From NCBI GenBank assembly GCA_023251555.1, contig JAHEYN010000006.1:1-64000 (forward strand): a stretch of 64,000 bases of DNA, written 5' to 3'. This document shows positions 7,835-62,854 of this stretch, in pieces. This stretch comes from Bacteroidota bacterium (GTDB lineage: Bacteria; Bacteroidota; Bacteroidia; AKYH767-A; JAHEYN01). Positions within the stretch are counted from its first letter, which is position 1; every line of letters starts with the position of its first letter. The notes under the pieces are model-generated. The model worked only from the letters and a program-made list of their open reading frames with translations. It was not told where the DNA came from and did not search any database. A program made the translations under genes and the position numbers.

Positions 7835-7903
7835 AAGACACAAAGATCCCTTCACCTGATGACTCAAAAGGGCATGAGTCCGACTTCTTACCGGTTCAGG
7901 CAA

Positions 7904-10081
7904 ATGACTGACACATACAGGCTTCCGGCAGCATTTTCGCTACTCTCTATCACATTTCTCTTGTCCGTATTTCCTGATCCTGTTTTTTCTCAATGTGCCA
8001 ACGGAGGTATTCCTTCCGGCAGCGAACTTGTTGCCAATGGTAATTTCAGCGTGGGGGATAGTGGCTTCAGCAGCAGCTATACCTATTGCAATACCGCCAA
8101 CTGTCTTTTCCCGGAAAGTTATTATACCGTGGCAACGACACCATCTTTTTATCATCCTTCCTTTACCGGCGCTGACCATACCACAGGTTCCGGGAACTTC
8201 ATGATAATTAACGGGGCCAGCACTGCAGGCGTTTCGGTATGGTGCGAAACTTTTAGTGTTACGCCCGGGACCGATTATCTTTTTTCAACATGGGTATGTA
8301 CGCTCAAATCCGCGAACACTGCCAAACTCCAGTTTTCTATCAATGGTGTTCCCCTTGGCAATATTTTCAATGCACCCATCCTTACCAACTGGTGGCTGCA
8401 GTTTTTTTCTACATGGAATTCCGGGACGGATACTGTTGCCACCATCTGCATTGTGAATCAGAACACGGTAACCAACGGGAATGACTTCGGGCTGGATGAC
8501 ATTTCCTTTCAGCCCTGCACCTGCGCTGCCAATGCAGGTCCGGATATGTCTGTATGCTTGGGGAACAGCGTCACGCTTACAGCCACAGGAGGGGGAAGTT
8601 ATTTATGGAACACCACAGCCGCCGCATCTTCTATTACGGTTTCCCCGGCACTCACTTCTGTTTACACGGTTACCGTAACTGCAGGCAGCACTAACGGCTG
8701 CACCGCTTCTGACTCAGTGAAAGTTACCGTGTTGTCCCTCCCTCCCGCCGCCGCGGGACCTGACACACAACTGTGTGCGGGCGACAGCACGCTGCTTACT
8801 GCATCAGGCGGAACAAGTTACCTGTGGAACACATCTGCAGCTACATCTTCCATTATGGTAGCTCCCCCCTCATCTGCTGTCTACTGGGTTTCTGTATCCG
8901 ACGGAACATGTGCTGCCGTTGACTCTGTAAGTGTTACTGTGCTGCCGCTCCCGCCGGTAAGCGCTGGTCCGGATACCTCTTTCTGCATGGGCGACAGCAT
9001 TACGCTCACAGCTACCGGTGCTTCCGCGTATTTATGGAACACTTCGGAAACAACACTATCTGTCAAGGTAGCCCCTTCTCTGCCTGCCATGTATTATGTC
9101 ACCGGTACGGATGGGAACTGCTTTGCCACAGACACTGTGGTTGTAACCCCGCTTGCACGCCCTCTTATCAGTGCCGGCAGCGACACTGCTATCTGCCCCG
9201 GCGACAGCCTTGTCCTTACAGCTTCCGGAGGCACGGCATATCTCTGGAACACAATGCAGGCAACAGCATCTGTCACAGTTGCGCCTTCTTCCCCGTCAGC
9301 TTACTATGTTACCGGAACAGATGGCAAATGCTTCGCCTCAGACACGGTTTTTGTTATGCTGAGAACCCCGCCTGCCGTTACAGCCGGCAGCGATACCCTG
9401 ATATGTTCAGGAAACAGTGTGGTGCTGAAAGCCTCGGGTGGAATAACATATATATGGAGTACTTCCGGAACAGCGGACTCTATCCTGGTAACTCCTGCAT
9501 CAACCGCCGTTTATACAGTAACCGGCACCGATGGAGTATGTTATGCATCGGATTCAGTCATGATTACAGTGGACCAGGTAACTGCTGATGCAGGGCCTGA
9601 TGTGCATATCAGCAGGGGGCAATCCATAACCCTGGGAACAGGAAATTCTTATTCCTGCTCCTGGAACCCCTCTTCCGGATTGAGTTGCGATTCCTGCTGT
9701 CCTGTTTCTGCAAGGCCGGATACTACTACTGTTTATGTTCTTACCGTAACGGACTCAGCAGGGTGCTCTTCTTCGGATACGGTAACGGTTTACGTGGATG
9801 AAACCTGCGGAACATTATATATCCCCAATGCATTTTCTCCCAATGATGACGGACAAAACGACCGGCTGTTTGTGAGGGGAAATTGTATCACGGAAATTCT
9901 GTTTGAAGTATATGACCGCTGGGGAGAAAAAGTCTTTGAGACGCATGATGTATCGAAGGGCTGGGACGGGCGATGGAATGGAAACCCCATGAATGAACAG
10001 GTGCTGGCTTTCTGTCTTAAGGCTCTGTTCAGCGACGGAAGCAGCATTGTAAAAAAGGGTACCGTCTCTCTCCTGCGTTAA
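7904..10081 (+). CDS. Large T9SS type B cargo: carbohydrate-binding-like N-domain, six Ig-like/PKD-like repeats, CHU_C C-terminal domain
   Basis: I chose the ATG at 7904 because it gives MTDTYRLPAAFSLL and a good signal peptide ending VFSQ. An ATG at 7859 would add 15 residues in front of it. After the signal comes a galactose-binding-like domain (about 30-200). Six repeats of about 75-80 residues follow, each beginning AG(P/S)D and containing LTASGG.(S/T)YLWNT and Y.VT.TDG.C. The C-terminal CHU_C / gliding-motility-associated domain (about 635-725) has YIPNAFSPNDDGQND and VYDRWGEKVF. Such domains direct type IX secretion and surface attachment (type B). The gene ends ten bases before the convergent helical-family gene. 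The target of the binding domain is unknown. Confidence 0.88.
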   Translation: MTDTYRLPAAFSLLSITFLLSVFPDPVFSQCANGGIPSGSELVANGNFSVGDSGFSSSYTYCNTANCLFPESYYTVATTPSFYHPSFTGADHTTGSGNFMIINGASTAGVSVWCETFSVTPGTDYLFSTWVCTLKSANTAKLQFSINGVPLGNIFNAPILTNWWLQFFSTWNSGTDTVATICIVNQNTVTNGNDFGLDDISFQPCTCAANAGPDMSVCLGNSVTLTATGGGSYLWNTTAAASSITVSPALTSVYTVTVTAGSTNGCTASDSVKVTVLSLPPAAAGPDTQLCAGDSTLLTASGGTSYLWNTSAATSSIMVAPPSSAVYWVSVSDGTCAAVDSVSVTVLPLPPVSAGPDTSFCMGDSITLTATGASAYLWNTSETTLSVKVAPSLPAMYYVTGTDGNCFATDTVVVTPLARPLISAGSDTAICPGDSLVLTASGGTAYLWNTMQATASVTVAPSSPSAYYVTGTDGKCFASDTVFVMLRTPPAVTAGSDTLICSGNSVVLKASGGITYIWSTSGTADSILVTPASTAVYTVTGTDGVCYASDSVMITVDQVTADAGPDVHISRGQSITLGTGNSYSCSWNPSSGLSCDSCCPVSARPDTTTVYVLTVTDSAGCSSSDTVTVYVDETCGTLYIPNAFSPNDDGQNDRLFVRGNCITEILFEVYDRWGEKVFETHDVSKGWDGRWNGNPMNEQVLAFCLKALFSDGSSIVKKGTVSLLR

Positions 10082-10091
10082 CCTTCCGGGC

Positions 10092-11627
10092 TCAGTTTAT
10101 TCCCGCCTTTCTCTTCAGTATCTGGGCAAAAGGCCTGTTTTCAATCTTGCTGTCCAGCCAGGAAATAAAATCGAAATATTCGAGGGCTTTCCTTTCAAAT
10201 TTTTGTCCTGTAATCTTCAGGAGGGCACTGCGCAATTCCATAAACTCCTCACGAAACTCTTCCCTGGAAATAATCTTAGGCAGGCGTCTTCTCATGAAAT
10301 TAAGGATAAGCTCTTCAAACTTATACAGGCGTTTCTTCTTGTCGAAAAACTGATACGCTGATTTCACAATGTATTCAAGGAATATCTGGTCGCCCAGTTC
10401 AAAGTGAATCACCAGGTTAAGCAGGCGGGCGAAGCAGTAAATATCATATGCCATGTGAATTGCCGAGGTGTCGTTGAGAATCCTGTTAATCCAGTGCTTG
10501 GCTTTCGTGTAATCGCCCATGCCGAAGTATATAACACCGGCATTATAACAAATGTTCAGTTCAGCAGTCTTGCTGATGGTACTTTTGAACTTTTCAAGAT
10601 TTTCATTTGCTTCCTGTATGAGGGCTTTTCCTTTTTCAAATTCACCCGTAGTGGTATAAAGCAATGTTTCCTGTACAAAAACATTGATAAACACCCTTTC
10701 CTGCATGGATTTTGATGTAACCCGTATGGCTTTCAGTTTGGAGATGGCATGAAGACACTCTTTGTATTTCTTCAGCCTCCTCAGGTCTTCAATGAAATTA
10801 TTCAGTGTAACGATGTACGAAGCGGGGTTTTCCCTGATGTCCCCTGTGCGTGCCTCCATCAGGCTGATCAGTTTTTTATTATTGAGATAGGCATTGCGGT
10901 AGTCATCTTTCATAAAGTAGTACAGCCAGTGCGAATAATAAAAATGGAATTTCGACCTGTAGGACAGCGTATTAATATTTTTCCTGAAAAGCGGGTGCTT
11001 CATTACGGTATTGAACCAGCGCTCTTCCGGGGATGTCCTGATAGCTCCCTTGCGGTTATAGAATAAAAACATCCTGAAAGAAAGACTCCAGAAATCATTT
11101 TCCGTCGTGAGCTGGCTCAGAACGGCGGAAGTGCTGTCATGAAGATCCGTAACCGATTGATCCCCTGACCGGAACCCAAGCTGGCGTTGCATGAGCATCT
11201 TTTCTATTTTTTTTACCTCCAGCATCTGGATAGGGCGATCCCGCTGAATGGCAAGCTTCTTAGCCCTCGCTGCCACCTTCCCGCACTCCTTGTACAGGCC
11301 TTTTTCATAGAGTATTTCAGCGTAATGAATCAGCTTCCTGAGTTTCGATTCTGCGGAATTATTCGCATGGAATACATCAAGACTTCTCAGGATGATTTCA
11401 TATAAGTACTGCTTGTGCACCCTCAGGTGCCGGATAAAACTTTCTCCAGCAAATACAGTGCGAAGAGCAGACTCATCATAAGACTTCTGCTTCTCTACGG
11501 CATTGAAAAGACGGATATATACATTCATCTTCCGGGCAGTATGTCTCTTTGCAAAAAGTTTGAAGTACCTTTTCTCCTGCTTGCTCAGGGCTTTGATAAG
11601 TAAAAACAGGCTGCTTGATTTATTCAT
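10092..11627 (-). CDS. Unrecognised cytosolic helical-repeat protein, paralog 1 of 3
   Basis: The protein has 511 residues, with no signal peptide and no membrane segment, and is rich in Lys, Arg, Glu, Leu and Tyr, with a TPR-like, all-helical pattern. It shares N-terminal LIKALSKQEKRYFKLF (residues about 10-25) and C-terminal YFDFISWLDSKIENRPFAQI (about 480-500) with the products at 12922-14463 and 58845-60398. The whole length aligns, including SYLY.LIL.SL and LLEYIVK-type segments. I do not recognise a named family. The gene is divergent from the T9SS cargo gene at 11768 (140 bases between start codons) and ends ten bases from the end of the type B cargo at 10081. Its leader is very A+T-rich. 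A regulatory or scaffold role for surface proteins is inference only. Confidence 0.75.
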   Translation of the reverse strand: MNKSSSLFLLIKALSKQEKRYFKLFAKRHTARKMNVYIRLFNAVEKQKSYDESALRTVFAGESFIRHLRVHKQYLYEIILRSLDVFHANNSAESKLRKLIHYAEILYEKGLYKECGKVAARAKKLAIQRDRPIQMLEVKKIEKMLMQRQLGFRSGDQSVTDLHDSTSAVLSQLTTENDFWSLSFRMFLFYNRKGAIRTSPEERWFNTVMKHPLFRKNINTLSYRSKFHFYYSHWLYYFMKDDYRNAYLNNKKLISLMEARTGDIRENPASYIVTLNNFIEDLRRLKKYKECLHAISKLKAIRVTSKSMQERVFINVFVQETLLYTTTGEFEKGKALIQEANENLEKFKSTISKTAELNICYNAGVIYFGMGDYTKAKHWINRILNDTSAIHMAYDIYCFARLLNLVIHFELGDQIFLEYIVKSAYQFFDKKKRLYKFEELILNFMRRRLPKIISREEFREEFMELRSALLKITGQKFERKALEYFDFISWLDSKIENRPFAQILKRKAGIN

Positions 11628-11645
11628 TACTATGAATGATTATAC

Positions 11646-11676
11646 TGTAAATATAGATTATATTATTGTATTTACA
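11646..11676. repeat. Inverted repeat in the A+T-rich divergent gap upstream of paralog 1
   Basis: TGTAAATA (11646-11653) and TATTTACA (11669-11676) form an 8-base inverted repeat, 18 bases upstream of the minus-strand start codon at 11627. It could be an operator for the divergent pair or a chance feature of A+T-rich DNA. Confidence 0.35.
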
Positions 11677-11731
11677 ATTTTAGATTTTTGCTTTTTGAGG
11701 TATTGAATTTCTCCCGTAATTCCAATTACCA

Positions 11732-11740
11732 TATTTTTGT
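11732..11740 (+). promoter_or_regulatory. Bacteroidota -7 promoter element for the type A cargo at 11768
   Basis: TATTTTTGT exactly matches TAnnTTTGY, 27 bases upstream of the chosen ATG. A second near match, TATCTTTAC, lies at 11751-11759. No convincing -33 TTTG at 19-20 bases is seen. Confidence 0.5.
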
Positions 11741-11767
11741 ATGCTGGTTGTATCTTTACGGAAACAT

Positions 11768-12910
11768 ATGAAAAGATCCCTTATCTTATTTACCTCATTG
11801 ACCTTTGCAGTATGGAGTTACTGCTTTGCCCTCAGCCAGGGTCCTCTGAGCCCTTCTTCAGGGGTTTCCGTGCCAAGGGCAGGATCCAATGCTCCCTGGA
11901 TGACTCCCGGGAATGTAACGGTAAGCGACAATGCTTATGCCGAATGCAGTGTTGACCCCGGAACCAACGTTAGTGAGTATCTCGAAGCTACCGGCTTCGG
12001 GTTTTCCATTTCGGGTACTGCCACAATTGACGGCATTACCGTTGAAATAGAGAAAGGGAGCCTGCTTTCCGTTACGGATGAGATTGTAACACTGATTTCC
12101 TCGGGCTCAAATATCGGCACCAACCACGCTCTTGCCTCAACCTGGCCGACCTCCTTTACTTATGTGAGTTATGGAGGCTGTTCGGACCTCTGGGGAGCAA
12201 CCCTTACCCCTGCTATCGTGAACAGTCCAACTTTCGGGATACGCCTTGCTTACACCAAGACCATCTGCCCGGCCTGCGTTTCCTACAACCCGGATGTGGA
12301 TCATATAAGAATAACCATTTGCTACAGCGCTTCCCTTCCGGTTGAGTTGCTTGATTTCAAGGCCACTGCTGAGCCATCCGGAAACAGGATAAATATCACC
12401 TGGAACACAGCCTCCGAAACCAACAGTGATTATTTCCTGCTGGAAAAGAGTTATGACGGGGCATTATTTGAAACAATCGCTGAAATAAAGGCCGAGGGGA
12501 ATTCCACTGCAGGGCAGCATTATTCTTTCACGGACATATACCCGCTCTCCAGATGGAGAGAAGAAGGAGGAGAGGTCTGTTACCGCCTCCGGCAATTCGA
12601 TTATAACGGTAATTTTATTTTGTCTCCCGTCACCATGGCGAAGGTCCATATTGCCGGCAGCGGTTTTTGCGTCTTTCCCAATCCGGTCCCTCTCAACAAT
12701 CCTGTAATCATACAACTTCCGGAGAATTTCAGGGGAGAAAAACTGTCTGTTGTTTTGCATGACCTTTCCGGGCGAAAAATTCCTTGCCCCGGTATGCCTG
12801 CATCCCATGGTGGATTGATATTATATCCCGCAGCAGAACCTGGCATATACCCATACATTATAACAATTGACGGATACCCTGTGCAGGAAGGGAAACTGAT
12901 GGTAAAGTAG
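11768..12910 (+). CDS. Exported T9SS type A cargo protein of unknown function
   Basis: The protein has 380 residues. The start at 11768 gives MKRSLILFTSLTF and a signal peptide ending CFALS; an upstream ATG at 11741 would bury the signal. The N-terminal part (about 25-185) is a beta-rich domain I do not recognise. It has SxxFxYVSYGG and CYSASLPVELLDF at its end. The segment PVELLDFKATAEPSGN..I.WNTASETNSDYFLLE (shown here only in parts) is a fibronectin-like stalk found in many Bacteroidota cargo proteins. The C-terminal domain (about 300-380) starts VFPNPVPLNNPV and ends in basic KLMVK. Divergent from helical paralog 1 and convergent with paralog 2 (11 bases between stop codons). Confidence 0.8.
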   Translation: MKRSLILFTSLTFAVWSYCFALSQGPLSPSSGVSVPRAGSNAPWMTPGNVTVSDNAYAECSVDPGTNVSEYLEATGFGFSISGTATIDGITVEIEKGSLLSVTDEIVTLISSGSNIGTNHALASTWPTSFTYVSYGGCSDLWGATLTPAIVNSPTFGIRLAYTKTICPACVSYNPDVDHIRITICYSASLPVELLDFKATAEPSGNRINITWNTASETNSDYFLLEKSYDGALFETIAEIKAEGNSTAGQHYSFTDIYPLSRWREEGGEVCYRLRQFDYNGNFILSPVTMAKVHIAGSGFCVFPNPVPLNNPVIIQLPENFRGEKLSVVLHDLSGRKIPCPGMPASHGGLILYPAAEPGIYPYIITIDGYPVQEGKLMVK

Positions 12911-12921
12911 CTGCAGTTGCA

Positions 12922-14463
12922 CTATGCAGCAGCCTTTCTTTTCATAATCTCTGCAAAAGACTTCTTCTCTATCTTACTCTCCAGCCAGGAGATTACATCA
13001 AAATATTCCATGGCTTTTTTCTCAAAAGGGTCGGAGGTGATCCGAGTGAGTTCGGCTTTCAGATCTTTGAAGGAAGCCAGCAGTTCCTTTTCGGAAGAAA
13101 TCTTCGGCACTCTTTTCCGGATAAAGTCAAGAACTGCAGTCTCCACCTTGTAAAGCTTGTTTCTCTTGAGAAGGAAACGGTAGGTGGATTTCACAATATA
13201 TTCCAGGAGGTCCTGGTTGCCCAGTTCAAAATGCACAACCAAGCTGAAGATCCGTGCAAAGCATTGCAGGTCCTCGCGAAAGTCGGCCTCCGTCTCATTA
13301 AGTATGCGGTTAAGCCAGCGGCTGGCATCGGAATATTTCCTGCACCCGAAATGCAGGTATGCAATGTTGAACCATGTGATCAGCCGGTAAACTTTTTCGA
13401 CCTTCACCGACAGGCTTTCAAACATCGGCAGATCCTCGTTCGCTCTTGCAAGCCCATGTTCAAATTCCCCCTTCTCAATATACATCGCAAGTTCATTGGG
13501 GAAAGAGAAAATGAAAATACGCAGACGGAGGAGGATTGATCTGGCGGGAATGGCCCTTAGTTTCTTCAGGGTGTCTATCACTTCGTCATACTTTCTCAGC
13601 TCCCCGCAGATCCTTATAAAAGTGGTGAGGGCAGGAATGTAAAGGGAAAGATAGTTGTGCATTTTCTGATGAGGATTGACTTCCGTCCACTCAACAACCT
13701 TTTTATACCATTTATAGCTTTCGGCAAGATTGCCCATCGCCCTGTAATACAGGCCGTAAGACTGGTAGTAGTACACCCGTCCTATATAGCTTTCAGGAAG
13801 ATTTTTCCTGCTGAAAAGCGGGTTACTGATGATGGCCTCATATTTCACACGGTCTTCATGGCTGCGAAGTACATCGTCCTTTATGCTGAGGAGATACAAT
13901 TGCTTGCCAAGCACCCAGTAATCGTTACTGTTTAAAATTCTTTCGCATGCTTCCTTCGTTTCCCGGTGGAGTGCATTGACATCCTGCTCATGCTGTGTCA
14001 CCTTTCCCGACTCAATTTCGGAAGAAATAATCGCCTTTTCCCAATTGATGATTTCAAGAAGAGCAGGATATATCTCATAGCGGTATGCCTGTTTCTTTGC
14101 TTTCCCGAGTAGCTGCTTGCACTGTTCGTACAGGGCTTTTTCGAAAAGCGATTCCACATGCAAAAGGGTTTCCTTCAGTTCCCTCAGAGGGCTGCTCTCA
14201 GACCTGAAAGCCTGCAGGCTCTTAAGAATAAGCTTGTACAGGTAGCTTTTCAGGTTGGGAATCTGTTCGGACTTGAAAAGTTTATCATCCTCTATCTCCG
14301 AAGGATCGTATTTCTCCTGATGCTCAAGAAGGTCAAATAAATGCAGATATATTTTCCTGCCCTTCCTTGCATGCTGTGCAGTATAAAGCTTAAAGTATCT
14401 TTTTTCAGACCCGCTTAAAGCCTTGATAAGTTTATATAAATCCGTAGATTTTTTATATTTCAT
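12922..14463 (-). CDS. Unrecognised cytosolic helical-repeat protein, paralog 2 of 3
   Basis: The protein has 513 residues, with no signal peptide or membrane helix. It aligns end to end with the product at 10092-11627: LIKALSGSEKRYFKLY at the N-terminus, NLKSYLYKLILKSLQ in the first third, LLEYIVKSTYRF near residue 410 and YFDVISWLESKIEKKSFAEI at the end. The spacing of Tyr/Leu positions (ALYEQCK, YYYQSYGLYYRAMGNLAESY) suggests TPR-like helix pairs. I do not recognise a described family. Its start codon faces the ENKGQ-SBBP cargo gene at 14612 (148 bases apart) and its stop is 11 bases from the stop of the cargo at 12910. So it lies between two T9SS cargo genes, like paralog 1. Confidence 0.75.
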   Translation of the reverse strand: MKYKKSTDLYKLIKALSGSEKRYFKLYTAQHARKGRKIYLHLFDLLEHQEKYDPSEIEDDKLFKSEQIPNLKSYLYKLILKSLQAFRSESSPLRELKETLLHVESLFEKALYEQCKQLLGKAKKQAYRYEIYPALLEIINWEKAIISSEIESGKVTQHEQDVNALHRETKEACERILNSNDYWVLGKQLYLLSIKDDVLRSHEDRVKYEAIISNPLFSRKNLPESYIGRVYYYQSYGLYYRAMGNLAESYKWYKKVVEWTEVNPHQKMHNYLSLYIPALTTFIRICGELRKYDEVIDTLKKLRAIPARSILLRLRIFIFSFPNELAMYIEKGEFEHGLARANEDLPMFESLSVKVEKVYRLITWFNIAYLHFGCRKYSDASRWLNRILNETEADFREDLQCFARIFSLVVHFELGNQDLLEYIVKSTYRFLLKRNKLYKVETAVLDFIRKRVPKISSEKELLASFKDLKAELTRITSDPFEKKAMEYFDVISWLESKIEKKSFAEIMKRKAAA

Positions 14464-14474
14464 AAGTATAAAAG

Positions 14475-14490
14475 TATTAAAATTTTAATA
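14475..14490. repeat. Perfect 16-bp A+T palindrome just upstream of paralog 2
   Basis: TATTAAAATTTTAATA is a perfect palindrome centred 20 bases upstream of the minus-strand start codon at 14463. The position fits an operator, but A+T-rich DNA produces such palindromes readily. Confidence 0.35.
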
Positions 14491-14530
14491 AAAAGAAATT
14501 ATATTTCTTATTTTATGCTTTCTGAAAGCG

Positions 14531-14539
14531 TATTTTTGT
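14531..14539 (+). promoter_or_regulatory. Bacteroidota -7 promoter element for the ENKGQ-SBBP gene
   Basis: TATTTTTGT matches TAnnTTTGY exactly, 73 bases upstream of the ATG at 14612. This implies an untranslated leader of about 65 bases. Confidence 0.55.
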
Positions 14540-14611
14540 TATAAAAACATTTATATGTATGCGTTTAACTTAATAATTTTAAACCGTACTAAAAATAAAA
14601 TCATACTACCT

Positions 14612-17437
14612 ATGAAAATCTTAAAAATCACCCCGCCTTTCGCAATGTTGATTTTTTTATTTGCCGCTTTCCTGCTTCTATTCACAGGCAATATGCTCCC
14701 CGCCAATACGCCGGCAAGTCAAACACTTCCGTTTACGGGCGGAGGCTTTATTGAAAATAAAGGACAGTTTATTAACGACATGGGAAGGCCGGCAAATGAT
14801 CTTCTGTTTAAAGCACGTTCCGGCGGAGTGGAGATCTGCATTACAAACCGCGGTATATCCTACATATTTAATAAAATCGCATGCGAAGAAGCAGGCAACG
14901 GCCTGCCGGGGAAAAAAGTGAAATCGTCTTCCCGCTCATGGGTTAATATGGTTCTTGAATCAGCCCGCATCCGGAAAGAAAATATTAAAATGCTCCTGCC
15001 CGAGGAAGGCTATAGTAATTACTTCCTTGCCCACTGTCCGCAGGGCATTACCAATGTAATGACTTATGATAAAATCCTGGTAGAGGAGGTCTATCCCGGC
15101 ATTGACTGGGTAATATACAAAGACCCGGCAAAGGGATATAAGTATGATTTTATTGTGCATCCTGGCGCGGACGCAGCCAGCATCCATGCAAGGTATGAAG
15201 GCGTATGCCGGGCGCTTCATAGTGACGGAGGACAGTCGCTCAGGATAAGTACTGCCCTTGGAGAAGTTACAGAGGGCAAACTTTACAGCTATGAAGAAAA
15301 AAGCCTAAGGCCAGTTGGTTCAGCATACTCCGTAAATAACAGCAATGAGGTTACTTTCCGGGTTGCCGGATATGACCGCACCCAGTCCCTGGTTATTGAT
15401 CCCCCCATGGGATGGTCTACCTATTATGGCTCAAACAGCAGCGTGGATGATATCTCTCAGGTGGTAACGGATGCTTCATCCAACATGTATGCTCTCGGGT
15501 ATACTATCTCCAATACCTTCCCCACTCAAACGCTTGCCGGTGCGTATAACCAGGCTTTTGGAGGCAACGGCGAACTTGCTGTGCTGAAGTTTAACTCGGC
15601 AGGAACCCGTCTTTGGGTTACTTTTTTCGGGGGCAGCTCTCTGGAGTATTCGTTTGGTGCCTCTGTTGATGCAGCATCCGGGAACCTTTACGTAACCGGG
15701 TACACCCAATCCTCCGACTTCCCGCGTGTGACGCTTGGAGGAGGCGCCTATAACCAGAGTTCTCCTACTTCTTTAACTGATGCCTTTATATCAAGATTCA
15801 ATGCATCCGGGGCACTGACATGGAGTACATTCTACGGAGGAAACGACGTGGATTACGGGCATGATATCGGAATTGATGTAAGTGGTAATTTTTATATCAC
15901 GGGGGAAACGCAGTCTACCAACTTCCCTTGTCTGACTTACACTCCTGCTACAGCAGGGCAATACAACCAGAGCATTAAAGCCACCACAGGCGGGCAGGAT
16001 GCCTTCATCCTGAAATTTGATAACGGCTGTGTCCGGAAATGGGCTACCTATTACGGAGGGGCGGGGGTTGCTTCCAACTCGGGCTGGGGCGCCACTGCCG
16101 ACCCCGCCGGGAATATATATATTGCCGGTGTGACCAACTCTACTTCCTTTCCTACGCTGACCTATACCCCTGCCACCGCTGGTCAGTATAACCAGAGTAC
16201 AATGGGATTCGGGGGAAGCGCATTTCTCCTGAAGTTCAGTTCAGCGGGGGTGCGTCAATGGTCAACCTACTACGGAAGCGGAGCCAGAAGCAAAGATGCA
16301 GTGACTGATCCATCGGGGAATCTATATGTTGTAGGTCTTACGCAAAGCGCATCCTTCCCTTACCTTGCATACTCTCCCGTTACCGCCGGACAATATAACC
16401 AGAGTACGCTTGCCGGGGGGCAGAATGCCTTTATACTTAAATTTAATTCCTCGGGAACAAGGCAATGGTCCACATACTACGGGGGCGAAAGTTGGGACGA
16501 TGCACAGCAAATAGTTGTTGAAGGCTCAGGAACAATATATATCACCGGCTCCACTTATTCTACGGCTTTCCCGATTCTTTCTCAGGCAGGATCTTATAAC
16601 CAGTCTGTGAATGCAAGCGCCCCAAGCGGAGGAACAACGGATGATTTTTATGTGCTGCAGATTAACTCCGCAGGAGTGAGGGAGTGGGCAACCTATCTCG
16701 GAGGAAACGATGATGAAAAAGCTTTCGATACCGGCTTCCTATACGGGATTGCAGTTGACGGGGGCAGCTGTGTATACGTCACAGGGGCAACCTCCTCTTC
16801 CGATTTCCCCCTTCAAACCCTATCCGGTGGCTATAACCAGGCATTCGGTGGTGTGCAAACCGGATTCATTACAAAATTCTGCACTGCAATATTGCCGCTT
16901 GAGATGCTTTCATTCAAGGGAGAAAGCAAGAGTGGCTTTAATCTCCTTGAATGGACAACAGCTTCTGAAAAAAACAACGACTATTTCGTTCTGGAACGGA
17001 GTGCTGACGGAGAATTATTTGAACCCGTGGGAAGGGTAAAAGGAGCAGGAAGCTCTTCTGAAAAACATTATTATGCCATGCGGGACGATGCTCCCTTTTA
17101 CCCCGTCACGTATTACCGCTTACGCCAGAATGATTATGACGGTAACTACAGCTATACGGCTGTTATTACGGTAAGTGCTCCTTTCGAGGAATACGCAGTT
17201 ATCTGCCCTAACCCTGCCAGGGAAGCAGCCTTTCTGTTGTGGCGATCGGAGAGCGATGCCATTGTAAATGTATGTATTGAGGACTTGCCGGGGAATCATA
17301 TTTCACGCCAGGTGCTACACCTTCACAATGGGGAAAACCGTCTCCGGCTGGATGTTAAAGATCTGCCTCCCGGAATGTATATTCTGCAGACCGAGGGCCT
17401 CGGCGGAAAGCAAAGACTGAAGTTTATCAAACAGTAA
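14612..17437 (+). CDS. ENKGQ-domain plus SBBP beta-propeller T9SS type A cargo, copy 1
   Basis: The protein has 941 residues. The ATG at 14612 gives MKILKITPPFAMLIFLFAAF, a signal peptide; an in-frame ATG at 14555 would put 19 residues in front. An N-terminal domain begins FIENKGQF (about residue 46) and contains YPGIDWVIY and YKYDFIVHPGAD. This is the domain of unknown function that precedes SBBP repeats in Bacteroidota (called DUF7948 from memory). About eight SBBP repeats of 55-65 residues follow (about 265-750), with AGNIYI.G.T.STSFP and GG.DAFI.KF. A fibronectin-like stalk and a C-terminal domain (ICPNPAREAAFLL onward, ending LKFIKQ) complete it. A surface-exposed propeller is expected; the ligand is unknown. 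It has the same architecture as the gene at 50568. It is divergent from paralog 2. Confidence 0.87.
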   Translation: MKILKITPPFAMLIFLFAAFLLLFTGNMLPANTPASQTLPFTGGGFIENKGQFINDMGRPANDLLFKARSGGVEICITNRGISYIFNKIACEEAGNGLPGKKVKSSSRSWVNMVLESARIRKENIKMLLPEEGYSNYFLAHCPQGITNVMTYDKILVEEVYPGIDWVIYKDPAKGYKYDFIVHPGADAASIHARYEGVCRALHSDGGQSLRISTALGEVTEGKLYSYEEKSLRPVGSAYSVNNSNEVTFRVAGYDRTQSLVIDPPMGWSTYYGSNSSVDDISQVVTDASSNMYALGYTISNTFPTQTLAGAYNQAFGGNGELAVLKFNSAGTRLWVTFFGGSSLEYSFGASVDAASGNLYVTGYTQSSDFPRVTLGGGAYNQSSPTSLTDAFISRFNASGALTWSTFYGGNDVDYGHDIGIDVSGNFYITGETQSTNFPCLTYTPATAGQYNQSIKATTGGQDAFILKFDNGCVRKWATYYGGAGVASNSGWGATADPAGNIYIAGVTNSTSFPTLTYTPATAGQYNQSTMGFGGSAFLLKFSSAGVRQWSTYYGSGARSKDAVTDPSGNLYVVGLTQSASFPYLAYSPVTAGQYNQSTLAGGQNAFILKFNSSGTRQWSTYYGGESWDDAQQIVVEGSGTIYITGSTYSTAFPILSQAGSYNQSVNASAPSGGTTDDFYVLQINSAGVREWATYLGGNDDEKAFDTGFLYGIAVDGGSCVYVTGATSSSDFPLQTLSGGYNQAFGGVQTGFITKFCTAILPLEMLSFKGESKSGFNLLEWTTASEKNNDYFVLERSADGELFEPVGRVKGAGSSSEKHYYAMRDDAPFYPVTYYRLRQNDYDGNYSYTAVITVSAPFEEYAVICPNPAREAAFLLWRSESDAIVNVCIEDLPGNHISRQVLHLHNGENRLRLDVKDLPPGMYILQTEGLGGKQRLKFIKQ

Positions 17438-55741: not shown

Positions 55742-56833
55742 TTATATGAGCAGGGCGCGGAGCCTGTTTTTTAAAAGTTCCTGTGAATTATGCGGAAGAC
55801 TCAGCAGGGAAACATTGTATTTCTTTGACTCTTCGAGGCTGCGGGAGAGGTTAAATTCTTCCTGGGGCTCACTGTAAAAAATCTTCTTCTTTTTAAAATA
55901 TTCCGCCAGGTATTCCTGTTCTGTCTGCCCTGGCGTAGGTACAAAGATTGCATTCCTGCCGAGTGCTGCCAGGTCCATAATTGAGGAATAGCCCCCCCTG
56001 CATATAATCACTGAGGCAGAAAGAAAGGCTTCCCGGAGTTTACCGGAATCAAGGTGAGGAACCATAGTAACGCCGGGGGGTATAGCGAAGGGGGCAGGGG
56101 CGGCGTTTCCCGGCAGGCCGCGGACGAGCAGGGCGGGGAAGCTGCAGCGGGCCAGATCTTCCACGATTCTTTTTTCAAAGATGCTGCGTTGAGGTTCGGG
56201 TCCGGAGAGGATGACCAGCAGTTTACCGCCTGTACTCGCGGGGAGAGCATTGTCTTTAAATCTTGAAAGCGGACCAATAAAATAAGTGTTTGCCGGCAAG
56301 GTGTATTGATGGGCAAGATCCCCGGAAAGGTTGTTCTCACCAGGGAAATCCGGTATCCAGCATTCATGGTAGCGGCTTATAAAAAACCTGTTCAGCCGGC
56401 AGAGGGCAGGCTCAAGAAACCTCAGTGAAGGGGGGCATTTTATCATCACCTGGTGTGTTATAAAAATGCTTCTCACCTTCTTACTCCACAGCCCGAAGCG
56501 GTTGTCGGAGATAACAATGTCAATGGAAAAGTCTTTAATTATTTTTTTAAGAAAATAGTGTTCGCGGCAAATACCGGCTCCAATCAGGGGAGCAGAAAGA
56601 ATCATTTTCAGTGCCTGGCTTCTCCCGGGCGAGTATGTAATATTGTAGCCCTGGATACGGATTAGCTGCAGGTGCGGGAATTCGTTTTTTAACAGTTCAG
56701 CAGGATGCCCGTCGGCTGCAATGATAACCTCAGCCCCTGCAAGTTCCAGTTCACGTATAAGCGGAATGCAGCGTGCAGCGTGGCCGAGTCCCCAGTTTAG
56801 CGGGCAAACGAGGATGCGTTTTTTTTTCGACAT
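55742..56833 (-). CDS. GT28/MurG-like family glycosyltransferase
   Basis: The protein has 363 residues. The start at 56833 gives MSKKKRILVCPLNWGLGHAA; GTG at 56857 would add eight residues. The N-terminal GT-B domain has the acceptor loop GLGHAAR (about 15-21). The C-terminal UDP-sugar domain has LLVILSGPEP, VTMVPHLDS and CRGGYSSIMDLAALGRNAIF followed by VPTPGQTEQEYLA. This pattern fits UDP-N-acetylglucosamine-type transferases related to MurG and the diacylglycerol glucosyltransferases, but it lacks the full MurG motif set. It is thus probably an envelope lipid or polysaccharide transferase, not MurG itself. The gene stands alone on the minus strand between the sigma factor gene and a cargo gene. 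Confidence 0.87.
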   Translation of the reverse strand: MSKKKRILVCPLNWGLGHAARCIPLIRELELAGAEVIIAADGHPAELLKNEFPHLQLIRIQGYNITYSPGRSQALKMILSAPLIGAGICREHYFLKKIIKDFSIDIVISDNRFGLWSKKVRSIFITHQVMIKCPPSLRFLEPALCRLNRFFISRYHECWIPDFPGENNLSGDLAHQYTLPANTYFIGPLSRFKDNALPASTGGKLLVILSGPEPQRSIFEKRIVEDLARCSFPALLVRGLPGNAAPAPFAIPPGVTMVPHLDSGKLREAFLSASVIICRGGYSSIMDLAALGRNAIFVPTPGQTEQEYLAEYFKKKKIFYSEPQEEFNLSRSLEESKKYNVSLLSLPHNSQELLKNRLRALLI

Positions 56834-56927
56834 GAGTTGTACGGGAGGCAACTCCACGAATATACAAATTCAGGGAGAAGGGGAAATGGTTGGGATGAGT
56901 GTTGAAGCGGGCATGCAAATAAGGTCG

Positions 56928-58742
56928 TTACCTTATCAGGCTCACTGTTCCGGAGGTTCCGTATTTTTTCCCGAGAAAGCTTTCCGCACTTATCACATAA
57001 ACATAAGCTCCTTCGGGTGCGGGTGCACCCCGGGTGTCTCTTCCATCCCAACCTTTATTGATATCCTGTGTATGGAAAAATACTTGTCCCCAGCGGTTTT
57101 CAATCAGCATATCAATTTTTGAAACACCGGCTCCAAAGGGGAGGAATATATCATTTGTGTTGTCGTTGTTGGGAGTAAAGGCATTGGGGACATAGAGAGA
57201 GAATTCAGCATGTACAATTACTTCGTGCTGTATGGTGTCTGAACAGCCCTCGGCATTAATAGCGATCATGGTAACGGTGAACAGTCCGGTGTCGGCATAA
57301 ACATGTACGGGATCCTGTTGCAAGGCCGGGCTGCTGTTATCCCCGAAGTCCCACAGGTAATTAACTCCGCCGGAGGTTTTGTTGGCAAAGGCAAGTTCGG
57401 CCACGGTATGATAACTGTAGGAAAAATCCGCTGCAGGGGGAATGGAAACAATCACGCTGAGGCTGTCGGTAATGGATTGTGTGCCGCAGCTGTCGGTAAC
57501 CGTAACAGCATAGGTGGTAGTGGTTTGCGGGGTAACGGTTTCCACGGAGTCATTTCCTGCATTATTGTTCCAGGAGTAAGAAAGCGGCTGGAGGCCGCCC
57601 GATGCAGATGCAGCAATAAGTGTGCTGTCGCCTATGCATATCGTGATGTCAGAAGGCATGCTGAGGGTAAGAGTAGGAGTATCTTTAATATACAAGGTGA
57701 TGCTGTCGAATTCGCAGAGGGAAGTCTGCACGATGAGTATCACTGTTTCAGTTGCTTCATTAATCCCGTCGAATACAGGGTTTATGAAGATGTCCACGGA
57801 ATCCTGTCCTGCCGGAATTATAGCACTGTCGGGGAGCAGGGGGAAGTCCTGTCCGTTAACGGCAGTGCCGGCAAAGGAATAGTGCACCACCACGTCAGAG
57901 GAAGCGGGTGCCGGGAGGGCGAAGGAAACCGTTGTGCCACTGCAGCCTTCGGTGGATGAGGAATCTGCATTGGGGGTGGTGGCGTTCAGCGTGATGATGT
58001 TGCTGCTGAAGCTGCTTGCTTCAAGGAACACGCCTGAATCATATATATCATCTCCCGCATCTGCGATAGCAATTTTGATGTGATAACTCTGGCAGGGTGT
58101 TACTTTCTGCCATGCGGTAAGCACGGTGGTAAAGCCGTCGTACTGGACGGTGGCTCCGTTGGTGTTGTTCACATAGTACAGGGAGTTGGTAGTTGCGTTG
58201 ACATTGTTAATTGAAACCGGTGTTGCGGTACCCGGAATAAGCGCGATGTTTTTGGTTCCTGCAATCCCGGGCCCGCTGATAAAGAAAGCAAACACATCAT
58301 TGAAAGAGCCCACCCACTCGGGATATTCTTCGGAGCCGAAAACATACCTGAATTTAACTGTATCCGAAGCCGGGGTGAAATCAAATTCGAGAACGCTGGC
58401 GTCGTGGGTCTGGGAAGCGCAGATGGCGTCGAGGTCTGCATCGCCAGAAAGCCCGTTGCCGATACCTGCCGAAGAAGAGTTGTTGGGTCCGGGAGCCTGG
58501 TTGATATCTCCGCTGGTGAGCAGTACACCCGAAGCAAGACCTATATTGGAGGCGGAGCCGTTAAACGAGCCGATGGCAGAAGCGCCCCCTGTGTATGTAA
58601 TATTGTTTACGGTCACCCCCGTACCTATCAGTACATTCTGCACCAGCTGCTGGGGTGTCATGAAATTGCTTACTGTAAGCTGGGCGAATGCGACAGAGGA
58701 CAGCAGGTACGGAAATACGGCTATGGCGGTCTTCTTTATCAT
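56928..58742 (-). CDS. Choice-of-anchor L / Calx-beta / PKD T9SS type B cargo
   Basis: The protein has 604 residues. The signal peptide MIKKTAIAVFPYLLSSVAFA precedes a choice-of-anchor L domain (about 22-240: LVQNVLIGTGVTVNNITYTG, LEFDFTPASDTVKFRYVFGS, EEYPEWVG.FNDVFAFFISG). A Calx-beta-like domain follows (about 250-350, EGCSGTTVSFALPAPASSDV). Then come an Ig-like domain (ICIGDSTLIAASASGG), a PKD domain with YLWDFGD (about 455-525), and the CHU_C end (YVPNAFTPNNDNTND, ENRWGQVFFHTQDI, WDGRDTRG.PAPEGAYVYVI). This composition is typical of large Bacteroidota surface adhesins. It has an exact promoter, so it is transcribed independently of helical paralog 3 upstream. Confidence 0.92.
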   Translation of the reverse strand: MIKKTAIAVFPYLLSSVAFAQLTVSNFMTPQQLVQNVLIGTGVTVNNITYTGGASAIGSFNGSASNIGLASGVLLTSGDINQAPGPNNSSSAGIGNGLSGDADLDAICASQTHDASVLEFDFTPASDTVKFRYVFGSEEYPEWVGSFNDVFAFFISGPGIAGTKNIALIPGTATPVSINNVNATTNSLYYVNNTNGATVQYDGFTTVLTAWQKVTPCQSYHIKIAIADAGDDIYDSGVFLEASSFSSNIITLNATTPNADSSSTEGCSGTTVSFALPAPASSDVVVHYSFAGTAVNGQDFPLLPDSAIIPAGQDSVDIFINPVFDGINEATETVILIVQTSLCEFDSITLYIKDTPTLTLSMPSDITICIGDSTLIAASASGGLQPLSYSWNNNAGNDSVETVTPQTTTTYAVTVTDSCGTQSITDSLSVIVSIPPAADFSYSYHTVAELAFANKTSGGVNYLWDFGDNSSPALQQDPVHVYADTGLFTVTMIAINAEGCSDTIQHEVIVHAEFSLYVPNAFTPNNDNTNDIFLPFGAGVSKIDMLIENRWGQVFFHTQDINKGWDGRDTRGAPAPEGAYVYVISAESFLGKKYGTSGTVSLIR

Positions 58743-58844: not shown

Positions 58845-60398
58845 TCATTTGCCCGGTTTCGCAGTCCTTCTTAAGCTTTCTGCAAAAGGTCTGTCTTCAA
58901 TTTTGCTTTCGAGCCAGGAGATGATGTCAAAATAATTAAGCGTTTGTTTTTCAAAGGGGTCATTAAGTATTTTTTCAAGTTCTGTTCTTAAAGCTTTAAA
59001 AGCGTTTATCAGCTCCTTTTTGCCGATAGCCTTTGGCAGTTTTTTTCTGAAGAAATCAAGGATAGATGCTTCTGTCTTATATAGCTTATCTCTTTTTCCG
59101 AGGTAGTAATGGGTAGTTTTTCCGAGGTATCCAAGCAAACCTTCATTATCCAGCTGGTAGTGAATAATAAGGTTAAAAATTCTGGCGCTGCAATAAATGT
59201 CCTGGCGTATGCCGGGGTATAAATCATTTAATATTTTATTATTCCACAGCAAAGCCTTTTTGTAATCACATATAATAAAATAAAGTAAAGAGAAATGGGA
59301 ATAGAAGACGATCTCATATTCCTTTGCTGTTTTTCCCCTGAATTCTTCGAGGCCATTTTCAACTTTGCTGAACAAAGAAATAGCTTTCTCGAACCGGCCG
59401 CAGGAGAGATACATATTCAACTCAAGGTTATAGCTTCGCTCAAAAATTCTTGCTTTTAAATCTTCAGGGCATTTGCGCCCTAATAGTCCGGGAATTGCCC
59501 GCATCTTTTTCAGTATGTGGGGCAGTTCATTATACATTCCGAGTTTATAGGATAAGCGGGCAACATTATTCAGGCTGGAAAGGTAAGTATTGGGGCGCTG
59601 CTTAATTTGTTCCGGGAAGGCCTCGAGCATCCCGACAATCTTTTTGCGGTAGTCATAGCTTTTTGCCAGGTTTCCTGTCTGCTCATAAAATATAGCATGA
59701 ATGAAAGCGAATAATTGCTTTGTTTCCCTGGTTATTGCTTTGCTTTCATATCTTAATAACGGGTTGTCCATAATATTTTTAAACTCCCTCAACTCATGTT
59801 CGCTTCTGGAGTCTCCCTTTGATGTTCTCAGAGAATACATTTTGTCGGCAAGCATCTGATATTCCCAGACATTTTTTATTTTTCTGAAGATCTCCTGTCT
59901 TTCGTTGTGGAAAGCATCTACTTTATGCCGGACATGTTTATCGCGGAAGGTTGTGGATATGATCAGATTTCTTTCCCGCTTAAGGATGTCAGCCCACATC
60001 TCATAATTTTCATATTTTGAAGCCATGTGTTTTGCTTTCATTAAAAGTTTGCTTCCTTCCCTGTACAGTCCTTTTTTAAAAAGAATTTCGGATTGGCTCA
60101 GGCAGCTTCTTAAATCCGAATCCTTGCTTGAGTGGTATGATTCCAGGCTTTGCAAGACCAGGTTATACAGATAGTTTTTGAGTTTAGGAAACTGGTTGTT
60201 TTTTTCATTGAGATTCTCCTCTTCTATTATCCGGCGCTCATCATACTCGGTTTGCTTATTAATCACATCAAAAAGCTTCAGGTAATTGCTGTCTTTTCTC
60301 GAAGTATTGAGTACTGCGAACTTTTTAAAATACCCTTTCTCCGATCGGGTTAGGGATTTTATAATCCTGAATAAGCTTTCAGAGTTGACTTTCGGCAT
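58845..60398 (-). CDS. Unrecognised cytosolic helical-repeat protein, paralog 3 of 3
   Basis: The protein has 517 residues, with no signal peptide or membrane segment. It aligns with paralogs 1 and 2: FRIIKSLTRSEKGYFKKFAV at the N-terminus, YLKLFDVINKQTEYDE, KLKNYLYNLVLQSLES, LLGYLGKTTHYYLGKRDKLY, and NYFDIISWLESKIEDRPFAE at the end. It is the most lysine- and A+T-rich of the three and the most divergent. Its start faces the RCC1 cargo gene at 60689 (290 bases apart, including a copy of the interspersed repeat). Downstream on the same strand, 102 bases away, is a type B cargo gene with its own promoter. The function is unknown. Confidence 0.75.
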   Translation of the reverse strand: MPKVNSESLFRIIKSLTRSEKGYFKKFAVLNTSRKDSNYLKLFDVINKQTEYDERRIIEEENLNEKNNQFPKLKNYLYNLVLQSLESYHSSKDSDLRSCLSQSEILFKKGLYREGSKLLMKAKHMASKYENYEMWADILKRERNLIISTTFRDKHVRHKVDAFHNERQEIFRKIKNVWEYQMLADKMYSLRTSKGDSRSEHELREFKNIMDNPLLRYESKAITRETKQLFAFIHAIFYEQTGNLAKSYDYRKKIVGMLEAFPEQIKQRPNTYLSSLNNVARLSYKLGMYNELPHILKKMRAIPGLLGRKCPEDLKARIFERSYNLELNMYLSCGRFEKAISLFSKVENGLEEFRGKTAKEYEIVFYSHFSLLYFIICDYKKALLWNNKILNDLYPGIRQDIYCSARIFNLIIHYQLDNEGLLGYLGKTTHYYLGKRDKLYKTEASILDFFRKKLPKAIGKKELINAFKALRTELEKILNDPFEKQTLNYFDIISWLESKIEDRPFAESLRRTAKPGK

Positions 60399-60618
60399 GG
60401 TATAAATTTTATATTAAAAAGCCTAATTTAATAAAATTATCAATATAATAGATAATAAATTAAATATTTGATTAGGTATAATAAGATTAATTTAATTTGT
60501 AATCCTTCGCCCCGGGATGTAGCCTTGCGTAATGAAATTATTAAGAGCAGGAGGACAGTATAGAATAATTACCAACCCCGTAATAAATTTTAAAAAACTA
60601 TCCATAAATTTGAATTCA
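60399..60618. other. A+T-rich gap upstream of paralog 3
   Basis: The first hundred bases are almost only A and T, with an imperfect inverted repeat (TTTAATAAAATTATC near 60427, GATAATAAATTAAAT near 60451). I see no exact TAnnTTTG promoter on either strand. Confidence 0.45.
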
Positions 60619-60684
60619 CCTTCGTGTTCCGCTATGGCAGCAAGAGGGTCCGGGGCTTGCCCCGGGGTTAATACCAATTTATTC
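60619..60684 (+). repeat. Interspersed repeat, copy C
   Basis: CCTTCGTGTTCCGCTATGGC is followed by AAGAGGGTCCGGGGCTTGCC, CCGGGGTTAATA and CCAATTTATT. It is the fullest copy and contains the hairpin CCGGGG-CTTG-CCCCGG. The TACG hairpin seen in copies A and B is decayed here (TATG, one arm changed). It ends five bases before the RCC1 gene start. Confidence 0.75.
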
Positions 60685-60688
60685 TGAT

Positions 60689-62854
60689 ATGAGAAAACGT
60701 ACTTATGTAATAGTTCTTCTGTCAACAATAATTTGCCTGTTATTTACGGCAGTTGACTCAGGTGCAACAAATTATTCTGCCGGATGGACAAGCATTGCAT
60801 TGTCAAATAATAATACCGGGCAGTTGTCTTCCTACACTCTGGATGCTACCAATCCTTCCTCAGGCGGCAGCGGTTGTGTGAACAGCTGTATCCCTTCGGG
60901 GGCAACCATTACGATAACATTTCCTGCAGGGACGGATGCTACCACTGCTGTTACTGCGGGCAGTACATTTGGAGGAGCTGCCATAGCAGCATATACTGCA
61001 CAAACGGCAACCACATTGTCATTTGTGGCTCCTGCATCGGTGGCAAAAGGAGTTGCCTTTACGATAGTGATACAGAATATTACCAATCCTGTTGTAGCCT
61101 CCTACTCTGTTTATACCACATTATCTGTGACTGCGGCAAATGTTTCACCCGGTACGACTACTTTCAGCGGGGGCAGTTCCACATACGCGATATTACCTAT
61201 TCCCGCTTTTGTTTCTCATCCGCTGTCATCAGGCTGGAACCATTCCCTGTTTATCTGCAGCGACAGTTCGATTCAGAGCTGGGGCCAGGATGTTTATGGT
61301 CAGTTAGGCGATGATCCTGTCAATGCTCAGAAAACCACACCTGTAGCGGTTGCCAATCTCACAGGTATGATAGCCGTAGCAGGAGGAAATTATCATTCCC
61401 TTGCCATAAAGAGTAATTTTACCCTATGGTCATGGGGAGAGGACACTTATGGTCAGTTAGGTGATAACGCCTCTCTTACCAACCAGTCTACGCCTGTGCA
61501 GGTTGCTTCTCTGACAGGGATTATTGCTGTTTCGGCAGGAGCCTACCACTCCCTTGCACTTAAAAGTGACGGCACGGTGTGGTCATGGGGTTGGGACAAC
61601 TCCGGTCAGTTAGGCGATAACGCCGGTTATGGGACTCCGGCAGATGATAAATCTACGCCTGTGCAGGTTGCTTCTCTTACAAATATTATTGCTGTTGCTG
61701 CGGGAGGGTACCATTCTCTTGCCCTGAAAAACGACGGCACCATATGGTCCTGGGGACGGGATAATTACGGACAGCTGGGGGATAACGCTTCTCTTACCAA
61801 TCAGCCCACCCCTGTGCAGGTTGCTTCGCTTACAGGTATTATTGCCATTGCAGCCGGGTATGATCATTCACTGGCACTGAAAAGTGATGGCACCGTATGG
61901 TCCTGGGGATGGGATATTTACGGACAGCTGGGTGATAATGCCAGTTACGGCACTGCCACTGATGACAAATCCACACCCGTGGCGGTAGCTTCTCTTACAT
62001 CTGTTACCGCAATAGCGGCCGGCGCATATCACTCCCTTGCATTAAAAAGTAACAACACTATTGCATCGTGGGGATGGGACAGCTATGGAGGGCTTGGTGA
62101 TGATGCTGCCCTGGCTAACAAACCCACGTTTGTGGCGGTTGCTTCCCTGACGTCTGTTATTGCAATTTCAGCAGGATGGAACCACTCTGCCGCGATGAAA
62201 TCCGACAGTACCGTATGGTCATGGGGCTACGACGCCTATGGCTCATTGGGTGATGATGCCGCCCTTGTAAATAAAGGGACTCCGGTGCAAACAGATCCCC
62301 TGAGTCTGTGCGTTATCTCTGCCCTGCCTGTAACGTTGCTGAACTTTAACGCCTTTCGGGAAAATAATAATGCAGTAAGATGCGAATGGACAACATCTTC
62401 TGAATACAGTAGTAATTATTTTGCGGTTGAGCGAAGCTATGACGGAGCATATTTTAAGGAAATCGGAAGAGTGAGTGGTGCGGGAAATTCCACACGGACA
62501 AGCAGCTATTCATTCGAAGATAATCACCCGCTCTCCGGGATTAACTACTATCGCCTCAGGCAGGCGGATTACAACGAAAAATACACTTATTCCAATATTG
62601 TTACTGTCGTTGCAGGTGAAACAAAATACCCGATCGGTATTTTCCCTAATCCTGCTGAAGACGAACTGCATATTGTTCCTTTCCCCGCTTCCTCATCCGC
62701 TATACGTATTACCAATATTCTAGGCGAAGAAATATTTAAACAAACAGTAGCTGAGGAAATCAGAATCAGTATCTCCTGCTTTCCGCGCGGAATGTATTTC
62801 CTGGAAGCTGTAACAGGGGAAGGCTCTTTTAAGAGCAAGATTATTTTTCGGTAG
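60689..62854 (+). CDS. Exported RCC1-type seven-blade beta-propeller with T9SS type A sorting domain
   Basis: The protein has 721 residues. The signal peptide MRKRTYVIVLLSTIICLLFT is followed by a beta domain of unknown type (about 25-175; IPSGATITITFPAG). Seven RCC1-like repeats of about 50-60 residues follow (about 180-545). Each carries HSLALKSDGTVWSWG and (D/N).YGQLGD or a variant, enough to close one propeller. A stalk, LPVTLLNFNAFRENNNAVRC, comes next, and a T9SS domain begins IFPNPAEDELHIV and ends FKSKIIFR. RCC1 propellers bind proteins or sugars; in bacterial surface proteins the partner is unknown. Blades 2-3 and 4-5 are near duplicates. It is divergent from helical paralog 3. Confidence 0.93.
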   Translation: MRKRTYVIVLLSTIICLLFTAVDSGATNYSAGWTSIALSNNNTGQLSSYTLDATNPSSGGSGCVNSCIPSGATITITFPAGTDATTAVTAGSTFGGAAIAAYTAQTATTLSFVAPASVAKGVAFTIVIQNITNPVVASYSVYTTLSVTAANVSPGTTTFSGGSSTYAILPIPAFVSHPLSSGWNHSLFICSDSSIQSWGQDVYGQLGDDPVNAQKTTPVAVANLTGMIAVAGGNYHSLAIKSNFTLWSWGEDTYGQLGDNASLTNQSTPVQVASLTGIIAVSAGAYHSLALKSDGTVWSWGWDNSGQLGDNAGYGTPADDKSTPVQVASLTNIIAVAAGGYHSLALKNDGTIWSWGRDNYGQLGDNASLTNQPTPVQVASLTGIIAIAAGYDHSLALKSDGTVWSWGWDIYGQLGDNASYGTATDDKSTPVAVASLTSVTAIAAGAYHSLALKSNNTIASWGWDSYGGLGDDAALANKPTFVAVASLTSVIAISAGWNHSAAMKSDSTVWSWGYDAYGSLGDDAALVNKGTPVQTDPLSLCVISALPVTLLNFNAFRENNNAVRCEWTTSSEYSSNYFAVERSYDGAYFKEIGRVSGAGNSTRTSSYSFEDNHPLSGINYYRLRQADYNEKYTYSNIVTVVAGETKYPIGIFPNPAEDELHIVPFPASSSAIRITNILGEEIFKQTVAEEIRISISCFPRGMYFLEAVTGEGSFKSKIIFR

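Follow-up and report, generated by a model that had tools for sequence, protein, structure and literature searches.

RusR-like proteins encoded divergently from type IX secretion cargo genes are probable dedicated local regulators

RusR (BT2802), the ribose utilization regulator of Bacteroides, regulates the rus genes, and rusR mRNA is unchanged on ribose (PMC12596196). Here we analyze the first 64,000 nucleotides of contig JAHEYN010000006.1 of a Bacteroidota bacterium (GCA_023251555.1), referred to in full length as the window, which encode three distant relatives of RusR, each divergent from a gene for a secreted protein carrying a clear or weak sorting domain of the type IX secretion system (T9SS). 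To our knowledge T9SS proteins are controlled by global systems, and no description of cargo-dedicated T9SS regulators was found in the open-access literature searched. Based on homology, gene arrangement and the DNA between the paired genes, we consider it most likely, with a probability of roughly 80%, that each family protein regulates transcription locally in the manner of RusR, being dedicated to the facing gene and acting on it through private operators.

The three genes are located on the minus strand at 10092..11627 (copy 1, 511 aa), 12922..14463 (copy 2, 513 aa) and 58845..60398 (copy 3, 517 aa), exactly as a preliminary description of this DNA had placed them. Their products align end to end with 34-37% identity, share the N-terminal block IK(A/S)L..EK.YFK and the C-terminal block YFD.ISWL(D/E)SKIE...FA, lack a signal peptide and are all-helical by prediction. 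The same description had regarded the family as undescribed and without assigned function, which has to be withdrawn since the NCBIfam model NF058569 ('BT2802 family ribose utilization protein', RusR) matched every copy tested end to end, with residues 1-504 aligned to positions 1-502 of the 502-position model in copy 1 (E=2e-68) and E-values of 3.3e-50 and 6.3e-54 for copies 2 and 3. The scores of 171-232 bits for the window copies and 244.5 bits for the best copy of the source genome are below the curated cut-off of 550, and judged by these scores the window copies are distant RusR homologs outside NCBI's family definition.

Pfam yielded TPR signals only, all of them sub-threshold, and a sequence search of PDB returned no match for the family proteins. 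AlphaFold2, run on 35 paralogs, yielded an all-helical superhelix (mean pLDDT 89.5, the value of the copy 1 model), for which the nearest structures found by Foldseek were generic TPR proteins including LGN, Rap, NprR and MalT domain III (best E 9e-4, TM ~0.4). The most conserved region of the family is the N-terminal head (LF.LIKSL..SEKRYFK), modeled as five helices with a pLDDT of 86.8; it had no significant match among PDB structures. Residues 7-24 (LF.LIKSL..SEKRYFKL) are a candidate for the DNA-binding surface.

The source genome (2.84 Mb, 55 contigs) contains 35 full-length copies as well as fragments. Neighborhood statistics were drawn from about 565 kb around these copies, with home-made gene calls, signal peptides judged by a simple hydropathy rule, and the type-A C-terminal domain (CTD) of T9SS cargo scored with a home-made hidden Markov model built from TIGR04183 hits. 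The upstream gene was divergent in all 34 full-length copies where one could be called, and 33 of these 34 had a divergent partner with a type-A CTD, compared with 4 of 235 other genes (Fisher p=1e-36). The lone exception is the window gene starting at 11741, whose type-A CTD is sub-threshold, while the 35th copy (C2) faces a secreted open reading frame (ORF) cut off at the contig end. A hydrophobic N-terminus was recognized in nearly all cargo partners. Most cargo genes have no family partner, since the source genome holds at least 150 CTD genes and 33 of the 71 present in the segments examined were paired. Divergent partners with a type-A or type-B CTD were also found for 14 of 22 copies in the metagenome-assembled genome (MAG) G435 and 10 of 20 in G444, and a third MAG (G437), whose contigs are too short for the cargo C-termini, has a signal-peptide gene with no visible CTD opposite 13 of 21 further copies. 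The proposal that the family is linked to T9SS cargo and duplicated along with it was upheld; the link exceeds chance in the source genome, G435 and G444, whereas in the phylum at large the partner is often metabolic. Regulator and passenger similarities were correlated (Mantel r=0.63, p=0.004) with the outlier C52_28739 and not without it (r=0.12, p=0.12); regulator-passenger co-evolution was rejected, the initial correlation being due to this single gene.

Same-order relatives carry 0-3 copies each and the sole same-family relative none. In a phylum sample a match was detected in 98 of 395 genomes, mostly one to three each with three candidates scored per genome, and large expansions were observed in G437 (43 matches), G444 (39) and G435 (25). 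The copies of the source genome have diverged to a mean identity of 35-36%. Short family-like fragments were noted in G000 (C48:25491-25712, C51:42705-43265 and C9:80909-81067), which are probably decaying copies and suggest birth-and-death of the pairs.

A divergent neighbor is present in 71 of the 80 named GTDB relatives; in the others the gene lies at the edge of a contig (eight) or in tandem (one). The 71 neighbors comprise leuA (27), type-A CTD cargo (14), LeuD-like genes (11), fabH (7), leuC (2) and ten others, among them a gene with a type-B CTD (L119) and one for a large secreted protein (L069), and RusR and its orthologs are divergent from ribokinase. The partner identities were verified on one representative each, namely 2-isopropylmalate synthase, FabH, LeuC, LeuD-like (E=2e-16) and ribokinase. 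Members linked to leu genes or fabH form one clade of 62 (support 1.0) apart from the cargo-linked clades. A constant divergent layout with a variable target marks a local regulator and is hard to square with a secretion chaperone.

Members facing leuA, leuC or LeuD-like genes span MAGs of Cytophagales, Flavobacteriales and Bacteroidales (L080, L085, L093, L101, L115-L122, L124, L125, L131-L140, L143-L145 and others) and are probably an unnamed regulator of leucine biosynthesis in Bacteroidota. Their sister members facing fabH, the gene for beta-ketoacyl-ACP synthase III (L091, L105, L108, L109, L111, L114 and L141), hint at a tie between leucine supply and fatty-acid initiation. At three loci (L084, L089 and L123) the divergent partner has 143-153 aa and is a candidate for a further target class; that of L089 resembles a LytTR-type DNA-binding protein by eye and had no NCBIfam hit.

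To characterize the DNA between the paired genes, 34 gaps were oriented from the regulator start codon to the cargo start, and the repeat score obtained with a gap's own first 18 bases as anchor was compared with that obtained with the first 18 bases of the other 33 gaps. The bases beside the regulator start codon occur once more in unchanged orientation in many gaps, with a word that varies by pair, as exemplified by GCTTTGTACAAAATTA (copies 89 bp apart), GGGAA(C/T)TTA(T/C)GAATAATTAA (85 bp) and GAATACTAAAAAT (66 bp). Own anchors scored 9.89 compared with 7.80 (standard deviation 0.25) for permuted ones (z=8.3, p<=5e-5) and ranked first in 7 gaps where about one was expected, whereas the controls gave z=0.03 for cargo-side anchors and z=0.9 and 1.5 for 20 divergent gaps without the family. 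An unanchored direct-repeat search was significant in 7 of the 34 gaps only. The anchored test gave p=0.003 in G437 and p=0.004 in the named relatives, with suggestive values in G435 (p=0.056) and G444 (p=0.098).

Scores of 9 or more were reached by 17 gaps, in which the two copies are separated by 65, 65, 66, 66, 75, 75, 76, 76, 77, 77, 85, 85, 86, 87, 88, 89 and 93 bp, distances for which the best period among those tested (9.5-12 bp) was 10.5 bp (R=0.72, Rayleigh p=3e-4 compared with shuffled pairings). The first copy overlaps the regulator's own start region. The Bacteroidota -7 box, searched as TAnnTTTG, starts 50-52 bp past the second copy in 59% of these gaps compared with 13% under the null, so that the second copy ends about 10 bp ahead of the -33 element, a position typical of an activator. 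The possibility that the repeat is a duplicated 5' end of the regulator gene was rejected, since the similarity breaks off near the AT of the start codon, and RNA-level control via the repeat is disfavored because the second copy sits upstream of the cargo promoter. The operator-wide Mantel correlation was r=0.19 (p=0.0035, outlier C52_28739 included), and mapping of protein windows against operator similarity gave weak hints at residues 11-32 and 398-417 (partial r 0.14).

A comparable arrangement was observed at other loci. Many leuA, leuC and LeuD-like loci carry an CATCGTAATTA-like element at the regulator start codon and again 65-67, 75-77 or 86-91 bp away, a two-site pattern that is less clear at the fabH loci. 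Most RusR orthologs (L256-L273) have a conserved TTGGGTTTATC about 59-74 bp from the rusR start, between rusR and ribokinase, and in 9 of 15 the first T of this element is followed by a perfect TAnnTTTG at a distance of 53-54 bp (51-52 bp past GGG), which is the register of the cargo pairs; a near copy by the rusR start is weak or absent. TTGGGTTTATC is a candidate for the RusR operator.

According to the mechanism we propose, each protein would consist of a TPR-like helical superhelix behind the conserved N-terminal helical head and would bind a short pair-private DNA word present in two same-orientation copies in the divergent gap. The steps of 10.5 bp imply that both copies would be bound on one face of the DNA. 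Protein bound at the far copy, which is located just upstream of the cargo -33 element and often precedes the -7 box by about 51 bp, would activate the cargo gene, while protein bound at the near copy, where the regulator gene itself starts, would act as a repressor of that gene; the superhelix would sense a signal. Activation of the cargo is the probable direction, a sign we infer from the site position and from RusR, the deletion of which Glowacki et al. are said to have found in 2020 to block growth on ribose. An ancestral single-target regulator would have multiplied until about 35 secreted T9SS proteins each had a switch of their own. We consider unlikely, and put forward as speculation, an extension in which the N-terminal head is a new DNA-binding fold and the superhelix monitors the paired surface protein or its substrate, for instance through the unexported precursor, the cleaved CTD or an imported ligand, resulting in about 35 feedback loops whose operators diversified after duplication to avoid cross-talk.

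Several observations weigh against regulation by dedicated proteins. No helix-turn-helix (HTH) domain was found by Pfam or NCBIfam models or by structure comparison of the whole model and the N-terminal head, and assignment to the HTH transcription factors was rejected on the latter comparisons. About one gap in two has a convincing repeat (17 of 34 with a score of 9 or more, own anchor first in 7), and no second operator copy was detected in the short gaps of window copies 1 and 2. The windows for the -7 box spacing and for the offsets were defined on the same data on which they were tested, with the nulls handled alike. Moreover, a clade of about nine sequences in same-order relatives is without a conserved divergent partner; its members may either act in trans or have a different role. 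Among the same-order loci L249-L254, the copies of L251 and L254 are convergent with a gene that is thiL-like by eye.

Four other explanations were weighed against local activation. In the one that survives best, which we nevertheless regard as improbable, the protein is a local repressor that bends or bridges the two sites and keeps both genes silent until a signal releases it. Helically phased direct repeats suit such bridging or looping, as does a near copy overlapping the regulator's own start, but the far copy is located upstream of the -33 element and not over the core promoter, and RusR is reported by Glowacki et al. (2020) to be required on ribose for growth.

It is very improbable that each protein is a cytosolic chaperone or quality-control factor for one cargo precursor, co-inherited for protein-protein specificity. 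Peptide binding is frequent among TPR-like superhelices such as the Foldseek hits LGN, Rap and NprR, and pairing in the source genome is almost exclusively with secreted cargo. However, ribokinase, leuA, leuC, LeuD-like and fabH products, with which relatives pair likewise, need no export chaperone, passenger similarity is no longer correlated with regulator similarity once the one outlier is removed (r=0.12, p=0.12), and phased pair-specific DNA repeats would be left unexplained. Of the roles originally suggested for the family, a regulator, a chaperone or a quantity control, the first has been borne out as the most likely and the other two are disfavored because of these metabolic partners.

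A quorum sensor resembling the RRNPP proteins (Rap/NprR type), in which the TPR protein binds an imported peptide derived from the secreted partner, is highly improbable. The fold hits include NprR, Rap and MalT domain III, and a cytosolic TPR-like protein beside a secreted one resembles the Rap/Phr layout, but the fold matches are those of generic TPR proteins, no N-terminal HTH was recognized by structure comparison, and the facing genes encode large T9SS proteins or metabolic enzymes rather than short pre-peptides (ORFs of at least 60 aa considered). Hitch-hiking, with the family as a selfish or mobile cassette whose insertions at cargo promoters have no regulatory role, can be practically dismissed even though 35 copies here and 25-43 in other MAGs are set against 0-3 in same-order relatives, for no mobility genes were seen beside the copies, the copies are diverged, promoter-spaced elements are conserved and the layout is repeated at leu, fabH and rus loci.

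All three window copies face a gene for a secreted protein as originally described, with a CTD that is clear for two of them and weak for one. The partner of copy 1 (11741..12910, plus strand) has a signal peptide and a weak type-A CTD (TIGR04183 E=0.0063, below the curated cut-off), while the partners of copy 2 (14555..17437, plus strand; DUF7948 and SBBP beta-propeller repeats) and copy 3 (60689..62854, plus strand; RCC1 repeats) are type-A T9SS cargo above the cut-off. Gaps of 140, 148 and 290 bp between the start codons hold with the inner cargo starts, whereas the longest ORFs reduce the first two to 113 and 91 bp. For copy 1 (gap 11628..11767) the inner start at 11768 is favored because a perfect -7 box, TATTTTTG at 11732-11739, lies just before 11741, and it is likely the true start. 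The cargo gene of copy 2 starts at either 14555 or 14612, and its gap (14464..14611) contains a -7-like TATTTTTG at 14531-14538.

In the gap of copy 3 the putative first operator copy, GGTATAAATTTTATATTA (60399..60416), abuts the start codon and the putative second copy, GGTATAATAAGATTAATT (60475..60492), follows 76 bp from it as a moderate match (own anchor 5th of 34), with a candidate cargo -7 box, TAGCCTTG, on the plus strand at 60520..60527, 45 bp past the second copy. The same gap holds a GC-rich palindrome (..GGGGCTTGCCCC..) at 60620-60688, which is also present in the G000:C9 gap 56665-56992 in opposite orientation. The flanks are alike in both gaps, TTCCGCTA(T/C)GGC..AAGAGG, and the palindrome is a dispersed element resembling repetitive extragenic palindromes.

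The stops of copies 1 and 2 were confirmed to lie 10 and 11 bp from the stop of a convergent cargo gene, which for copy 1 carries a type-B T9SS sorting domain (7859..10081, plus strand). A choice-of-anchor L protein with PKD and type-B sorting domains is encoded in tandem with copy 3 (56928-58742, minus strand). The type-B cargo of the window is not paired with the family, while some type-B cargo in G435 and G444 is.

If the proposed regulation is true, about 35 cargo-dedicated regulators would add to the control of the bacterial surface a layer that is new. The results also point to a function and an operator arrangement for the family across the phylum, comprising RusR in Bacteroides, regulators of leucine genes and fabH in Cytophagales, Bacteroidales and other groups, and cargo regulators elsewhere. 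A regulator duplicated many times, with operators diverging by pair, would also be a natural experiment on the evolution of protein-DNA specificity in a protein lacking any recognized DNA-binding domain, and the operators can be tested directly in genetically tractable Bacteroides.

Compared with known systems, the arrangement resembles in part that of LysR-type regulators, divergent activators that bind once upstream of the target promoter and once at their own. The divergent layout with one site per promoter, as proposed for the family, would be common to both, while the family has putative direct-repeat sites, another fold and no recognized winged HTH. RRNPP proteins (Rap/NprR) and MalT domain III likewise present the TPR-type superhelix of a cytosolic regulator, from which the family differs in being unrelated by sequence, in lacking a recognized HTH head or a STAND ATPase and in having no cognate peptide gene among ORFs of at least 60 aa. 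PorXY-SigP of Porphyromonas also governs T9SS gene expression (PMC7712824), as a two-component system with an extracytoplasmic function sigma factor acting on secretion components and not as a one-to-one cargo regulator. The leu- and fabH-linked members belong to the same family and have the same divergent layout and two-site gap (CATCGTAATTA-like), but form a separate clade (support 1.0) with a common putative operator word and one copy per locus. RusR, which faces ribokinase and is present as one copy, differs from the window family with its secreted T9SS cargo, about 35 paralogs per genome, putative operators varying by pair in the window genome and model scores far from the RusR cut-off (171-232 compared with 550 bits), and shares with it end-to-end homology, a length of about 500 aa, a divergent orientation to the known or presumed target gene, and a DNA element whose distance from the -7 box matches and is conserved.

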